From positions 1 to 42,948 of the forward strand of contig JAHJVW010000095.1 in assembly GCA_018828585.1 (NCBI GenBank): a DNA stretch of 42,948 nucleotides. The letters are read 5' to 3'. Shown here piece by piece: positions 5,293 to 11,204 of the stretch. Under the pieces are notes generated by a model. The model had not been told where the DNA came from. It ran no database searches and worked only from the letters and a program-made list of their open reading frames with translations. The DNA comes from Bacteroidota bacterium (GTDB taxonomy: Bacteria > Bacteroidota > Bacteroidia > Sphingobacteriales > Sphingobacteriaceae). The translations under genes were made by a program, and so were the position numbers. Every line of letters begins with the position of its first letter. Positions within the stretch are counted from its first letter, which is position 1.

Positions 5293-5686
5293 GGGCTCGA
5301 CCGGAATAGACAGGATGGATGATAAGTGGGTAAGCATGCAGCGCAATGAGGATTCAGCGCTTAAATATTGATTCTCAAAACACAAAAGGCGAAAATAACT
5401 ACGCTCTTGCTGCTTAATCTTAACCAAGTTAAGATGGCTTAGTCATACTTTAGAAGTATGAGCGAGATGTTTCCCGGAAGCCAAGTCTGGCGGCAGCCGA
5501 TCAGGAAGCACAGAAATGCTAGAATAAGGAAGAGTAAGTTTCGGGCTCTTCTCGAAAACTCAAGAAACTAAGGAATCATCAGGCTGTTTATGGCCAAATG
5601 CTTCTCGAAAACCAACCATAAAATAAGCATGTAGAAAGCGCAACTGGTCCCATGTTTGGACGAGGGTTCGAATCCCTCCGGGTCCA
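5293..5686 (+). ncRNA. ssrA: Transfer-messenger RNA (tmRNA)
   Basis: Rescues stalled ribosomes by acting first as an alanine tRNA and then as an mRNA for a degradation tag. The ends pair as a tRNA acceptor stem (GGGCTCG at 5293-5299 with CGGGTCC at 5679-5685). The T arm is complete (GAGGG, loop TTCGAAT, CCCTC, about 5662-5678), and the conserved 5' core GACCGGAATAGACAGG is present. The tag reading frame runs 5388-5417 and encodes GENNYALAA then TAA, a tag form I associate with Bacteroidota; the terminal ALAA is the protease signal. CCA is not encoded. No terminator follows directly: the next lies at 5864-5900, so the precursor should carry a long 3' trailer. Confidence 0.96.
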
Positions 5687-5863
5687 CTTAATGACCAAAA
5701 AGCAGGCAGCGGATTGGAACGGAAGAATTACCAAATTTATTTGAGTATTTCTGATTGTAAATACGCCGATTGTATTGCAATCGCTGGTTTTTGGTTCCCT
5801 TTACGGGTGAGGAGGGAAAAGCTTTGCTAATCTTCCGGGTCCACAAGTATTTGTTGAAACAAG
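5687..5863 (+). ncRNA. Possible structured RNA in the tmRNA 3' trailer
   Basis: No promoter or terminator separates this stretch from ssrA, so it is probably co-transcribed and released by 3' processing. Positions 5720-5735 can pair with 5823-5837 (about 14 bp with one bulge and one mismatch). Enclosed are a hairpin CGATTG/CAATCG near 5768-5784 and TTCCCT (5795-5800) pairing with AGGGAA (5813-5818). Near its 3' side, 5834-5844 repeats 11 bases of the tmRNA 3' end exactly (TCCGGGTCCAC). It might be a rod-like RNA of the 6S type, a stable trailer, or a decayed attachment-site duplication. The pairing was found by eye without energy calculation. Confidence 0.35.
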
Positions 5864-6362: not shown

Positions 6363-6499
6363 GGTACGTAATTTTAGCTTATACTAAAATAAAAAATTAG
6401 TTTATTGATTAAAAGCTTTTTGTGAATTATTTTTTACAGGATTAAATTGATTTGTTTGAGCGGATGATGTTTATGAAATGCCCTTCTGTCTGTAGTCTT

Positions 6500-6512
6500 G
6501 GATTACAAATCC
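6500..6512. repeat. Palindromic repeat GGATTACAAATCC
   Basis: This imperfect palindrome occurs here and at 23813-23825, with a variant on the other strand at 10913-10927. It looks like part of an interspersed repeat family. Confidence 0.45.
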
Positions 6513-6525
6513 AAATTATTGGTTA

Positions 6526-6560
6526 TTCGACCTACCCTGCGGAACATTTCGAATAGCATT
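6526..6560. repeat. Left 35-bp repeat flanking the restriction cassette
   Basis: Matches 11027-11061 at 29 of 35 positions in the same orientation. The right copy carries a perfect TTCGACATG/CATGTCGAA hairpin; in this copy the arms are partly degraded. The two copies bracket the DUF2971 gene and the type IIG gene. Confidence 0.6.
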
Positions 6561-6653: not shown

Positions 6654-7724
6654 TTAAAATCCTAACTCATTTTTCAAATGCGAAATTTCAACCTTTACTA
6701 AAGGTAAATCACGCTTTTTATTTAAATGATTTAAATGATTTTCCAAATCAACAGATTCTTTTATTGTGTGTTTGTAACCTAAAATAATTTTCTCAATTTT
6801 TATTGATGGTATATTTTTAAAATTTAAATGATTATAATCCTTATAGTTATAATCATTTCTCAAATTCAAATTAATAAAAGATTTATAATTGTTTTTATCA
6901 CTTAAAGAGTAATCACGACTAAAAAGATCGAGAAATTCACTTTCTATTGAATTATTAATTGAATAATATGGAAGTCTAGTGAACAATCTGACTTCTTTTT
7001 CAGCTTCATAATATTTGGATTTATGAAAAGCCAAAACAGGTGTAATAAAATTTTTGAAGTTTAAAAAACTCACTTTATTATCAATTAAAAACTGTTGATG
7101 TTTATTAAAATAATCTTTTATTAAACTATTTTCATTACCATAATGAATTTTTGAAATATGAAAGTTGTACCAATCATACCTGTGTATACCATCCACATTT
7201 AATATTAAAGCTGCCCCTTCTCCGCTTTTTCCATACTCCTTCCACATACTAAAAGTATCAGGTTTTTCAAAATCTTCTATTTCGCACATTGAAAGTGAAA
7301 AAGATTTTCTTTTTCGAGATAAATCTTTAGCATCTTTTGAATTTTCATTAAAGGTTATGTTATCCTTGTGAAGTTTTTGACTAGTTTTTTCATCATCAAT
7401 ATAAATTATTTCTTTAGGATCATTTACTTTAGATAAATCATGAAGTCTTAATTGATTAGATTTTATGATTTCAAAAACGGCTTCAACAGAAGTATAATGA
7501 ATAAAATCAGTTTTATCTTCTAAATAGTATGGACTTTGATATAAGTTTCTATTCTTAAATAAACTTGGTAAACTTCCATTTAAATTATTAATCCCCTTTA
7601 TTCCTTCAACTTTTAAATTAAAATTTGAATTACCTTTTAAAACAAAGTTTGGGAAGTAATTTCTCAATAATGTTCTTTCATAAAAATTCAATATTTTGTC
7701 GAAATCGGAAAAATCTTTACTCAT
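6654..7724 (-). CDS. DUF2971-type protein coupled to the type IIG enzyme
   Basis: A 356-residue soluble protein whose central part fits the DUF2971 pattern: FIHYTSVEAVFEIIKSNQL (about 74-92), LSKVNDPKE with the NDP triplet (101-103), FSLSMCEIED followed by MWKEYGKSGEG (about 160-170), and KYYEAEKEVRLF (about 237-248). About 70 extra residues precede the HYT motif. Its ATG overlaps the stop codon of the type IIG gene (ATGA at 7721-7724), so translation is probably coupled. The DNA is very AT-rich (8 G or C in 60 bases at 6841-6900), unlike the neighbouring housekeeping genes, which suggests transfer. The molecular function of the family is not known to me. Context suggests a role in defence or in controlling the restriction enzyme. 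Confidence 0.78.
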   Translation of the reverse strand: MSKDFSDFDKILNFYERTLLRNYFPNFVLKGNSNFNLKVEGIKGINNLNGSLPSLFKNRNLYQSPYYLEDKTDFIHYTSVEAVFEIIKSNQLRLHDLSKVNDPKEIIYIDDEKTSQKLHKDNITFNENSKDAKDLSRKRKSFSLSMCEIEDFEKPDTFSMWKEYGKSGEGAALILNVDGIHRYDWYNFHISKIHYGNENSLIKDYFNKHQQFLIDNKVSFLNFKNFITPVLAFHKSKYYEAEKEVRLFTRLPYYSINNSIESEFLDLFSRDYSLSDKNNYKSFINLNLRNDYNYKDYNHLNFKNIPSIKIEKIILGYKHTIKESVDLENHLNHLNKKRDLPLVKVEISHLKNELGF

Positions 7725-10700
7725 ATCCCCTCCACTATTTTAATTTCCTCTTCTGTTAATTCATACAACTCATAAACCATTTTATCAATTTGTTTATCAT
7801 CGATGTCAATTTGGTTTTTTATTGAACTTAGTTTGTTTTTTTCTGCTTTGAAATAATCTTCCCATTCGGCTTCTTCCGAAAGTTTTAATTTTGCTTTCTT
7901 TTTTGCCAGCTCTTTAATAAAATCGTCATACGTCAATAAATGCCAGTCTTGTAATTTTCTTGGTAAATCTTCTACCTCAAATTTTCGTTGAATCGTTCTT
8001 TGAAATTTCAACGAATTTTCTTGTTGTTGATTTTTTAACTCTAATATCTCATCACTTAATCCACCTAATTTTAAATCAACCTCCACTAGCTTTTTGGAAA
8101 TGGGAAAGGATTTGAAATGTTGTAATTTTACTTTAGGGAACAAATCATCAAATTCTGAATACTTGAACTTGAAGTAGAACGCCATCAATTTTGAGCCTAA
8201 AATCGACATTATTGATTTAGGATTGAACTTTGAATTATCATAAAATCTTGCGATAAATACTGATTGGTCAATCACAAAAGCCTGTTCTAAATATGCTACA
8301 ATCAATCGTATAGACGGAATTTGTCTTAGAACAATTCTTTTCCCATTAAAAAATTTAGGCTCCCTCGGTTCTGCTAACCATTTACCGTAGCTTATATAAC
8401 TGTCATTATTCCAATTCAAATATCCTGATTGAACATTTCTACCTCTTAGATATGGCAAAAAAGTTTCATCTTCTTTTTTATCAGATTGATAGGGGTCTTT
8501 CTCTATAAACTCTTTTGTATGCCCAATTCGTTTGTGATAAACTCCGACTCCTCTGCCAATGTCTGCTAATGTTTCTAATGCTATCGCATTATGATTTAGT
8601 TTTTTAAATATGTCATAAATATTTTTGGTTATATGAATGTTTATGAGAGTACCTTTTTCTTTTAACCAATCCTTTTGATTAATTTCTCCGATAACCTTGA
8701 ATTGCTCATTAGTACATTTGAAAAGTTTAGTTAAGTCATCTTTTGAGTTCTCAAAAGTGACAATAATTGTATCAACATTAGCATCTAAAAAAGTATTAGA
8801 TGGCATTGAAACAATTTCAACTATATGTGAATTATTCAAAAAGAATTTTCTCACATTCTCTAAAAATAAATTATTTAACCACGAATTCGGAACAATTAAA
8901 GAAGACATCCCTGTTTTAGAAATCAATTCTAAACTTTTTTCGAGAAATAATATGTATAGGTCGATTTGATAAGCCGATGTTTTGTAATTCTGTGTAAAGA
9001 AGTTTTTCATTTCTTTAGTAAACATTTCTTCCTTACTATTCACATAAGGCGGATTCCCAATAACCACATCAAAACCACCTTTATCAAAAACTTCTTTAAA
9101 CTCGTTATTCCAATTAAAAGCTTTATCGCCCGCTACTTCAACATCATCAATTAAAGAATTACCACATTTTAAGTTTTGGTTTAATGAGTTCAACTTTCTG
9201 CCTTTTCGGGCGGTACGTAACCATAAGGAAAGTTTGGCAATTTCTACGGCTTCCTCATTAATATCAACACCATAAAGGTTGTTTTCTAAAATGCTGTTTT
9301 CTACATCAGATAAAACCAAGCTTCCACCTAATAAAGTGGCTTTAATTTCATCTAACTTGGTATGCTCGGCAATTAAAAATTCTAAGGCTTGGTTTAAAAA
9401 CGCTCCCGAGCCACAAGCTGGGTCAACAATCTTTAATGCTAAAAGCCAATTGCGGTATTCGGTTATTTTTTGGTTAAGGGTTTCTCTTTTTGTTTTGTCT
9501 TTTCCTTTTGCTTTGGCATCAATAAACTCAAAATCTTCCTCTTTAATTTCAAGTTTTTCTTTTTGCGCTATACATAAAGCGCCAATCGTATTTTCTACGA
9601 TGTATTTGGTAATGTATTTTGGTGTGTAAAAAACGCCATCCTTTTTACGTTTGCTTACTTTTTCGGTTTTTTCACCTGTTAAGCTGGCTTGTATTTCATC
9701 AATCTCATTTAAAGAATGTTCAAAAATATGCCCAAGTATGTTTACATCAACTTCGCTTTCAAAATCATAATTGCTAAGTTTTAGTGAACCTTTAAATAGT
9801 AAATCATCATCAATGGTTAAACTATCTAAAATATCATCAGGGGCAAATAAACCGCCGTTGTACGCAAATATTTCTCCGTCTTTGCCGTGGTAGCCGGTGT
9901 TTAAATAATCGAAGTTTTTCCGAAACCTGGTATAAAGTGGGATGTAATTATCGTATTTGTCTTTAAGGTCGGTCCAATCTTGTAAAATCTTTCTTGTCCA
10001 GTTTGGGGAAACTAAACCTCTGTCTTCGGCAAAGAACAGAAACAAAAAGCGGTCTAAAAGTTTCTGCGTTTTCTTAAATAAAAACAACCTATCATAATCG
10101 GTGTTTTTATTGCAGATGTCATTAAACAAGTCTATTCTAAATTTCGCATAGTCTGCATAAAGCTGTTTGGTTACCTTTTCTTCTTGATGGTTGGATGCTT
10201 CTTTAATTTGAGCAGGTATATTTTTTAATAAGTAGCTTTCACCTAAACAAACCCATAATAATTTAAAATCATCAAAAGTTAAATTGAACAGATCGAATTC
10301 TTCAAATTCAACTGCATTATCAATATAAAATCTAAGCTTTCTGAAATTAGAAGTAATTACATATTTACACCCCTGTTGATTGTTTTTATAGCCAAATGCC
10401 TGACTTTCTATGCTACTTAAATCAACCGTCTTTGTAGACTTCAATTCTATCACGCTTAATACCTGCAATCCGTTTAAAATTGCTCCGTCTGCTTTTTTGC
10501 TTCCTTTCTCGTTCTTCTGTTCAGTTATTAAATTATGGTCTCCATCAGGATAAAGAGTATATCCCAAAACCTTAACAAATAACTCTCTTAAAAATCCCTC
10601 TTGATATTGTTCTTCTTTGGCATTTATAATATTTTCCTGTTTGGCAGGATTGTGAAATACATTTTGAAAATCTGAATAGGCTTTTTGAAGATCATGAGTA

Positions 10701-10750
10701 TTTAGCTCATTAAAATATTTGTTAAGTACAGATTTTTGAAAGAGAGACAT
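7721..10750 (-). CDS. Type IIG restriction enzyme / DNA methyltransferase (Eco57I-like)
   Basis: A 1009-residue single-chain restriction-modification protein that would both methylate and cut DNA. An N-terminal PD-(D/E)xK-like nuclease region has D88 followed by E102-L-K104 (ADGAILNG, then VIELKSTK). A helical linker follows, then an N6-adenine methyltransferase: GVFYTPKYIT (about 372-381), the AdoMet motif DPACGSG (443-449), YGVDI (493-497) and the catalytic NPPY (566-569). The C-terminal third, from about 720, has YLRGRNVQSGYL and other features of TaqI/Eco57I-type target-recognition domains, ending in a coiled helical tail. No separate specificity or methylase gene is present, so it should act alone. 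The recognition sequence cannot be inferred. The C-terminal half is visibly more AT-rich than the methyltransferase half. Confidence 0.9.
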   Translation of the reverse strand: MSLFQKSVLNKYFNELNTHDLQKAYSDFQNVFHNPAKQENIINAKEEQYQEGFLRELFVKVLGYTLYPDGDHNLITEQKNEKGSKKADGAILNGLQVLSVIELKSTKTVDLSSIESQAFGYKNNQQGCKYVITSNFRKLRFYIDNAVEFEEFDLFNLTFDDFKLLWVCLGESYLLKNIPAQIKEASNHQEEKVTKQLYADYAKFRIDLFNDICNKNTDYDRLFLFKKTQKLLDRFLFLFFAEDRGLVSPNWTRKILQDWTDLKDKYDNYIPLYTRFRKNFDYLNTGYHGKDGEIFAYNGGLFAPDDILDSLTIDDDLLFKGSLKLSNYDFESEVDVNILGHIFEHSLNEIDEIQASLTGEKTEKVSKRKKDGVFYTPKYITKYIVENTIGALCIAQKEKLEIKEEDFEFIDAKAKGKDKTKRETLNQKITEYRNWLLALKIVDPACGSGAFLNQALEFLIAEHTKLDEIKATLLGGSLVLSDVENSILENNLYGVDINEEAVEIAKLSLWLRTARKGRKLNSLNQNLKCGNSLIDDVEVAGDKAFNWNNEFKEVFDKGGFDVVIGNPPYVNSKEEMFTKEMKNFFTQNYKTSAYQIDLYILFLEKSLELISKTGMSSLIVPNSWLNNLFLENVRKFFLNNSHIVEIVSMPSNTFLDANVDTIIVTFENSKDDLTKLFKCTNEQFKVIGEINQKDWLKEKGTLINIHITKNIYDIFKKLNHNAIALETLADIGRGVGVYHKRIGHTKEFIEKDPYQSDKKEDETFLPYLRGRNVQSGYLNWNNDSYISYGKWLAEPREPKFFNGKRIVLRQIPSIRLIVAYLEQAFVIDQSVFIARFYDNSKFNPKSIMSILGSKLMAFYFKFKYSEFDDLFPKVKLQHFKSFPISKKLVEVDLKLGGLSDEILELKNQQQENSLKFQRTIQRKFEVEDLPRKLQDWHLLTYDDFIKELAKKKAKLKLSEEAEWEDYFKAEKNKLSSIKNQIDIDDKQIDKMVYELYELTEEEIKIVEGI

Positions 10751-11204
10751 GTTTTAAAAAAGGATATGCCACAATATCCGAAAAATCATTTTAAAAATTA
10801 ATCTTCTTTAATTTAATTGTTTCCTATTTATTTAAGATGTACTTAATTTTGTTAATGGACTAACAAAGCTGTTCGACCTATTAGCAAAGCGTATGACGTA
10901 CCAGAGATAAAAGAGATTTGTAATCTCCTTAATAGCATATCACTTATTTAATATTTAATAGCTTAAAAGAAATACTTACACGCATGGAGTTTGCTAAATT
11001 GGATTAAAATCCAATTTGCTTTAAAGTTCGACATGCCCTAAGGAACATGTCGAACAGCATTAATTTTAAATGATTTAGAACAATACTACACAACCCATCG
11101 TCATTAAATTTTATGACGCTCCTCATTTTTCTGATGCTGTAAAACATTCAAATTGCGATATAGTTATAGTTTTAACAACAGCCATAACTGACCCCTTTAA
11201 GTAT
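10751..11204. other. 454-bp intergenic region holding several palindromes
   Basis: No gene seen. It separates the minus-strand restriction cassette from the plus-strand CoA-transferase and so should contain two divergent promoters, but I see no exact TAnnTTTG box I would trust. It holds an inverted GAGATTTGTAATCTC at 10913-10927, a perfect palindrome with 10-bp arms at 10996-11017 (AAATTGGATT on the left), and the right-hand 35-bp repeat at 11027-11061. A fragment related to the inverted end of that repeat (GCTGTTCGACC) lies near 10868-10878. Confidence 0.6.
11027..11061. repeat. Right 35-bp repeat with perfect hairpin
   Basis: Carries TTCGACATG (11027-11035) and its exact reverse complement CATGTCGAA (11046-11054) around a 10-base loop. 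It is 29/35 identical to 6526-6560, on the other side of the restriction cassette. Confidence 0.65.

Follow-up and report, generated by a model that had tools for sequence, protein, structure and literature searches.

A type IIG restriction-modification gene and a DUF2971 gene, overlapping in the window (the whole stretch of 42,948 nucleotides analysed here), appear to form a small anti-phage cassette that was gained by horizontal transfer and consists of two separable modules, the restriction enzyme and a co-expressed back-up effector; we put the probability of this reading as a whole, horizontal acquisition included, at about 0.58. The type IIG enzyme would methylate host sites and cut unmethylated foreign DNA, while the DUF2971 protein, which corresponds to the PADLOC candidate PDC-S31, would be translated from a message shared with the enzyme, by way of an ATGA overlap, and serve as an independent, ADP-ribosyltransferase-like second-line effector, modifying a target of the cell or of the phage when a phage had passed restriction. 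The DUF2971 protein is probably a separate anti-virus effector, with a presumptive role in defence and, more specifically, as a back-up. Among three roles that an earlier note on this DNA had proposed for it, that of an added effector fits best, and those of a sensor or a regulator are unsupported here. The pairing recurs with other restriction enzymes, and a mix-and-match defence cassette is therefore likelier than a fixed new machine.

Both genes are encoded on the minus strand. The type IIG gene is complete (7721..10750, 1009 aa, ATG start) and shares 4 nt with the DUF2971 gene (6654..7724, 356 aa, ATG start), whose start codon lies on the stop codon of the enzyme gene in an ATGA overlap, GGGATATGAGT; the overlapping pair described earlier is thus confirmed by open reading frame coordinates and junction alike. 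This overlap suggests that the two are expressed from one common message. GC content is 23.7% in the DUF2971 gene and 31.5% in the type IIG gene, whereas eight further genes from the window have 34–40%. The genes around the pair were judged by eye to be housekeeping-like, and the view of the pair as an accessory block in their midst is upheld by a close relative (G138), which has an identical gene order and no such pair at the corresponding site. Predicted promoters and terminators at the locus did not exceed chance level, and an Rfam scan returned tmRNA as its only match.

Since the relative shares the gene order without the pair, the cassette is an insertion, of approximately 4.4 kb. Comparison with this empty site also revealed a flanking repeat. 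Its left copy, of 61 bases (6499..6559, plus strand; core 6526–6553), is 93% identical to the single copy in the compared stretch of the relative, and the right edge of the insertion (10990..11060, plus strand; core 11027–11054) carries a diverged copy in the same orientation. A repeat finder with a seed of 10 did not list the repeat, and the chance value of a pattern search with the repeat core is not independent, because the pattern was derived from the repeat itself. The repeat is not abundant: BLAST against its own genome gave two matches, neither of which is the diverged right copy. We also considered integration at the end of the tmRNA gene and rejected it, because the cassette starts about 0.8 kb beyond it, at a different sequence. 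Beside the enzyme gene, the only other same-strand neighbour of the DUF2971 gene is a gene of 96 aa, 291 bp away, which has no Pfam match above cut-off and is also present in the empty-site genome.

The product of 7721..10750 matches the Pfam families Eco57I (9.4e-47, residues 490–649) and TaqI_C (2.7e-20, residues 766–884; 8099..8455, minus strand), and scores 915 bits against the PADLOC type IIG model PDLC03609. Methylase motif I, DPACGSG (residues 443–449; 9404..9424, minus strand), and motif IV, NPPY (residues 566–569; 9044..9055, minus strand), are both present. D87...E102-L-K104 (residues 87–104; 10439..10492, minus strand), identified by motif only, would suit a nuclease of the PD-(D/E)xK type. 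Methylase and recognition domains therefore occur within one polypeptide, with the nuclease motif in the same chain, as in stand-alone type IIG enzymes of the PDLC03609 family. In these, too, one chain combines the nuclease motif with an adenine methylase and a recognition domain, and the window enzyme itself is no different; the second gene appended to it is the sole difference.

In keeping with the earlier note, DUF2971 genes lie behind type IIG genes more often than do other genes of the same loci: 3 of 73 DUF2971 genes examined outside the window occupy an operon position behind a type IIG gene, compared with 1 of 494 other genes (p = 0.0075), although these are small numbers. The DUF2971 gene follows the enzyme gene with a 2 bp gap in G141 and with a 1-nt overlap in G108, and in G684 a gene of 209 aa stands between the two. 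The enzymes in these three genomes belong to three further PADLOC families, making four with that of the window. Nor is the association confined to type IIG systems; another DUF2971 gene overlaps a type I hsdR by 4 nt, and a type I S/M pair is also seen as a neighbour. The coupled or uncoupled state changes at least three times on a DUF2971 tree built by a quick method.

The partner of the enzyme is likewise exchanged. Seven homologues of the window enzyme occur in 250 genomes, and a DUF2971 gene stands behind that of the window only; the others are followed by Gabija in two cases, by an unknown gene in one and by nothing co-directional in three. In the two Gabija cases (G055 and G283), an enzyme of the same family as the window's has defence genes, GajA/GajB, in the same downstream slot, in one instance after a PDC-S11 gene, but the partner is different and the gaps are longer, about 90 and 62 bp. 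A fixed partnership, as the earlier note envisaged, is not borne out: only a small minority of DUF2971 genes lie behind a type IIG gene, relatives of the enzyme carry other partners or none, and the DUF2971 gene of G245, which shares 55% identity with its coupled counterpart in G141, stands without a type IIG gene beside it. By the yardstick which that note itself had set, namely how often the two genes are adjacent, the fixed-partner form is disfavoured, since adjacency is rare.

The same observations bear on how far the two genes depend upon one another. Were they obligately coupled, the enzyme would act as a sensor of DNA that is unmethylated, blocked or cut, its signal would set off the DUF2971 protein, and neither would protect alone. 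Tight junctions (-4, 2 and -1 nt) across enzymes of different families, and the excess adjacency to type IIG genes, favour such an arrangement, but we regard it as quite unlikely given the uncoupled gene of G245, the lack of DUF2971 behind six of the seven enzyme homologues, and G108, where the type IIG gene is split and yet the DUF2971 frame is whole. A bolder version, which we hold to be a long shot, makes DUF2971 proteins unrecognised but widespread ADP-ribosyltransferase-like phage-defence effectors with type IIG enzymes as their sensor: a blocked nuclease or disturbed methylation would release the transferase upon an essential target and the infected cell would stop, a restriction-plus-suicide pair assembled several times. 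At the opposite extreme, the genes may have come to lie side by side in an insertion-prone, defence-rich region, with nothing but the site in common. The rarity of adjacency in either direction, the filling of the same slot by other modules, the difference in GC content between the two genes, and the proximity of DUF2971 genes to other defence genes, as expected for any island gene, are all consistent with a passenger; we nevertheless think it unlikely, because three loci have gaps of just -4, 2 and -1 nt and DUF2971 genes are in excess behind type IIG genes (p = 0.0075). A cassette of separable but co-expressed modules accommodates both the recurrence and the exchange of partners. That the DUF2971 protein might instead temper the enzyme, as a regulator or inhibitor shielding the host during the establishment of methylation, is suggested by the co-directional overlap and nothing else, and is very improbable: type IIG enzymes have a methylase of their own, relatives of the enzyme occur without DUF2971, most DUF2971 genes have no methylase neighbour and, being the later gene in coupled loci, DUF2971 would be made after the nuclease.

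The window protein matches PF11185 (DUF2971; residues 160–247, 6984..7247, minus strand) at 22.7 bits, barely above the curated cut-off of 22, and at 26.8 bits in a search of the genome, where it is the only match. It matches PDC-S31 at 2.6e-7, and PDC-S31 models also match eight of the nine other DUF2971 proteins in the tight loci scanned, the exception being that of L040, without a match at E 0.01. Conservation was read from an alignment of 74 sequences. H76-Y77-T78 (7491..7499, minus strand) is found across most of the family (H in 54/70; Y in 54/71 and F in 16/71; T in 49/71), and K235...E242-x-E244-x-R246 (6987..7022, minus strand) is near-invariant (70/72, 70/72, 71/72 and 70/72). The window protein has every one of the family residues, H-Y/F-T, N-D-x-x-E, W-x-x-Y, Y, K and E-x-E-x-R.

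We consider it rather likely that the protein has an ADP-ribosyltransferase-like fold of the DarT/Tpt1 kind. It may be catalytic, with the near-invariant E242 and E244 as candidates for the catalytic Glu of an NAD+-dependent transfer. When two predicted models were realigned, Tpt1 and DarT ranked first (Z 6.3 and 5.5; 5.9, 5.5 and 5.2; 5.1–6.3 overall), all values being below 8 and so, according to the alignment tool, possibly reflecting just a common arrangement; the modelled resemblance is weak but consistent. Profile comparison with hhalign, using the 74-row alignment, placed H76-Y77-T78 on the H-x-T strand of DarT with E 0.01 and a probability of 4% (controls 0.099, 0.46 and 0.66); a 10-row alignment gave 0.072 (controls 0.69, 0.61 and 0.87). 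Foldseek was weak or silent, with no match below E 0.001 for the models, and ADP-ribosyltransferases were absent among the 50 matches listed for the better one. Sequence searches of the PDB returned nothing, whether with the single protein (E 1) or with the alignment (E 10). The protein matched none of the transferase families in Pfam or NCBIfam; for DarT (PF14487) it had no match up to E 0.1, and the whole genome had none either.

The PADLOC candidate set that includes PDC-S31 is said to stem from a guilt-by-embedding search, its members being recognised by their embedding in defence systems (PMC12988326); PADLOC gives neither function nor fold for the entry. The literature search, which lay outside bioRxiv and most subscription journals, produced no paper on the type IIG and DUF2971 combination, no report of anti-phage activity for DUF2971 and no match for PDC-S31 or PF11185, DUF2971 being mentioned in one paper, a genome reannotation. 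The earlier remark that no system of this composition had been described thus holds for the combination, but its second component is already a PADLOC candidate. The nearest parallel is DarTG2 inside a type I system, which is reported to protect E. coli (PMC12255303). Both cases join a restriction-modification operon to an added effector gene with a (here possible) ADP-ribosyltransferase fold, but that effector is a toxin-antitoxin pair, whereas a single gene lacking a PF14487 match follows the type IIG gene here; with the enzyme gene and the 96-aa gene as its only same-strand neighbours, the DUF2971 gene has no antitoxin gene beside it and does not constitute a DarTG module. Defence modules that replace one another can evidently occupy the position behind type IIG genes, much as DarTG can be housed in type I systems, and a little-mentioned family acquires a testable hypothesis of fold and residues. 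Should the enzyme prove to control the effector, the pair would offer a simple means of asking how cells detect failed restriction.

The DUF2971 protein matches a phage family of unassigned function, phrog_1762 (3.2e-16), and the best matches in a viral structure library were phage proteins, mostly without described function (best E 1.5e-3); no DUF2971 relatives were found in viral contigs, or in a phage collection searched with the G141 protein. Genome contigs yielded no relatives with the single window protein and eight loci with the DUF2971 alignment. Among plasmids the window protein has no match, and its relatives match one to three records. A gene of 233 aa behind the broken type IIG gene of G054 was examined as a diverged DUF2971 and is not claimed as such, its hhalign probability being below 1% (0.07% for a control protein); the stretch of it that aligned to DUF2971 is the K...E/x-x-R part.

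The type IIG gene (7721-10750, minus strand; 1009 residues) and the DUF2971 gene (6654-7724, minus strand; 356 residues) of the window overlap by four bases. By its domains and motifs the longer product is predicted to be a complete type IIG enzyme, with matches to Eco57I (9.4e-47), TaqI_C (2.7e-20) and the PADLOC type IIG family PDLC03609 (915 bits), while the shorter product matches DUF2971 narrowly (22.7 bits against a cut-off of 22) and the PADLOC candidate PDC-S31 (2.6e-7).

A one-protein search found relatives of the DUF2971 protein in 5 of 301 family-level genomes, and further searches found them in 23 of 395 genomes at the level of the phylum, 27 of 400 at that of the order and 18 of 395 at that of the class; these sets overlap, and all counts include the window's own genome. 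Named genomes contributed eight loci, three being contigs already found. Left out of the count were L119, which was fetched and yielded no DUF2971 frame, L123, which duplicates a locus already fetched, and contig C23 of genome G074, which was not fetched. A DUF2971 gene was scored as coupled where a protein of at least 450 residues with both methylase motifs was encoded upstream, on the same strand, within two genes and with gaps of at most 50 bp. This applied to 3 of 73 distinct DUF2971 genes outside the window and to 1 of 494 other genes of the same loci (Fisher p = 0.0075), the sole exception among the latter being a 209-residue gene of genome G684. The pairing with a type IIG gene described in the earlier note recurs in excess, in a small minority of DUF2971 genes. 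The three coupled genes lie 2 bp behind the enzyme gene (G141), overlap it by 1 nt (G108), or follow it with the 209-residue gene between (G684). PADLOC assigns their partners to the type IIG families PDLC03610 (1097 bits), PDLC03612 (710 bits, for the longer of two frames) and PDLC03628 (895 bits; a PLD/SNF2 helicase gene lies 12 bp before this one), so that coupled enzymes, the window's included, represent four families.

Neighbours of other DUF2971 genes include a gene matching type I R models, overlapped by 4 nt (L144), divergent type I S and M genes (L040), a TIR-domain gene of genome G356 with the DUF2971 gene 3 bp behind (L049, 5443-6969), DndB-like and AAA ATPase genes that the DUF2971 gene precedes (L009) and, on a Segatella plasmid, GajA/GajB on one side and a NACHT gene on the other. 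In Vibrio sp. HDW18 the DUF2971 gene adjoins an integron integrase, like a first cassette (L154, 4986-5990). In Chryseosolibacter a second DUF2971 gene stands behind the first (L036, 6937-8298); its product carries a long N-terminal region, which has the look of a PD-(D/E)xK nuclease and a weak likeness to HSDR_N (E 0.016, below the cut-off). For the loci not named here the systematic search was for methylases alone, and 'solo' denotes the lack of a methylase neighbour.

Partner exchange is apparent from both genes. On a quick tree of DUF2971, a 14-row clade (SH-aLRT 97) holds three of the four coupled genes and the fourth is far off; the coupled label requires 3 changes against a mean of 3.9 when labels were shuffled (32 of 500 shuffles gave as few), a pattern of little clustering in which coupling appears to have been gained or lost repeatedly. 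The coupled G141 protein and its uncoupled G245 relative are 55% identical, and thus the DUF2971 module lives both with and without the enzyme. Conversely, of 250 genomes from the order, 7 hold an enzyme matching PDLC03609 (E 1e-100), and DUF2971 is one of several occupants of the slot behind them. The window's enzyme is followed on the same strand by DUF2971, that of G055 by GajA/GajB (L157, 186-7314) and that of G283 by a PDC-S11 gene with GajA and GajB after it, all co-directional (L160, 4724-12001). In G054 the enzyme gene is interrupted (85% identity to the window's over the first 413 aligned residues) and followed at 7 bp by a 233-residue gene (L162, 7799-8500) whose product matches solely phage families of unknown function; in G135, G182 and G697 nothing co-directional lies behind.

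An alignment of 74 DUF2971 sequences displays conserved H (54/70), Y (54/71; F in 16), T (49/71), N-D-x-x-E (51/68, 67/68 and 58/66), W (72/74), two further Y (65/74 and 73/74), K (70/72) and E-x-E-x-R (70, 71 and 70 of 72), and the window's protein has the commonest residue at each of these positions. AlphaFold2 (nine sequences) gave pLDDT 64.9 and pTM 0.71 for this protein, and 79.8 and 0.82 for that of G141. Structural realignment of Foldseek candidates placed Tpt1, a member of the ADP-ribosyltransferase fold, and DarT at the top for both models. For the first, Tpt1 scored Z 6.3 (rmsd 3.3, 116 aligned) and DarT 5.5 (4.1, 139), the top eleven rows being Tpt1/KptA, DarT or a diphtheria-toxin homologue and the next reaching Z 2.9; for the second, Tpt1 scored 5.9 (3.2, 115), DarTG 5.5 (3.4, 135) and DarT 5.2 (4.4, 146), followed by an NAD-bound bacterial effector (4.6) and an unrelated row (3.5). 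Against a transferase fold, every Z falls below 8 and Foldseek itself returned no match below E 0.001 for either model: DarT took the top four places for the first (E 0.03-0.23), and no such transferase was among the 50 matches listed for the second. In a profile comparison with 11 DarT proteins, the 74-row profile matched on the H-x-T strand with E 0.01 (probability 4%; three unrelated families 0.099, 0.46 and 0.66), and a 10-row profile gave E 0.072 (unrelated families 0.69, 0.61 and 0.87). We put the probability that DUF2971 adopts a DarT/Tpt1-like fold at about 0.7; that it is catalytic is less probable.

DarT is an ADP-ribosyltransferase according to two papers (PMC11543638, PMC12255303), and the nearest published parallel to the cassette is DarTG2, situated between hsdS and hsdR of an E. 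coli type I system within a seven-gene phage-protective island (PMC12255303). The general idea is already known, since DUF2971 is listed as PDC-S31 and the PDC series is said to have been identified through embedding within defence systems (PMC12988326). The combination with a type IIG enzyme and the fold proposal had no match in the literature covered, which lay outside bioRxiv and most subscription journals. We class the cassette as a restriction enzyme to which a putative effector has been appended. In the inferred mechanism, host DNA would carry the enzyme's mark and DNA without it would be cut, and the DUF2971 product, presumably made together with the enzyme, would serve as a back-up effector. 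No antitoxin gene was seen with the window's DUF2971 gene, so in uninfected cells its protein would be expected to stay silent or do no harm.

The DUF2971 gene (23.7% GC) and the type IIG gene (31.5%) are poorer in GC than eight others of the window (34-40%), which suggests a foreign origin, perhaps from two separate sources. The right-hand flanking gene is present in 11 of 18 genomes of the genus, the window's own included (E 1e-100), and 8 of the 10 others were fetched for comparison. The close relative G138 lacks the pair and has the same gene order on both sides, where five shared genes encode proteins 94-99% identical. In the remaining seven genomes the order beside the flanking gene is different, and they are uninformative on the empty site. 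The edges relative to G138, at approximately 6494-6560 and 10990, make the insert about 4.4 kb. A 61-base stretch, single in the compared stretch of G138, flanks the insert on both sides in one orientation, the right copy having diverged; recombination at this repeat is our guess at the route of insertion. Similarity to G138 also stops at the 3' end of the tmRNA gene (5293-5687, plus strand; tag ENNYALAA), where a Bro-N gene comes next in that genome (L175, 10588-11439), which suggests a separate insertion spot at the tmRNA end.
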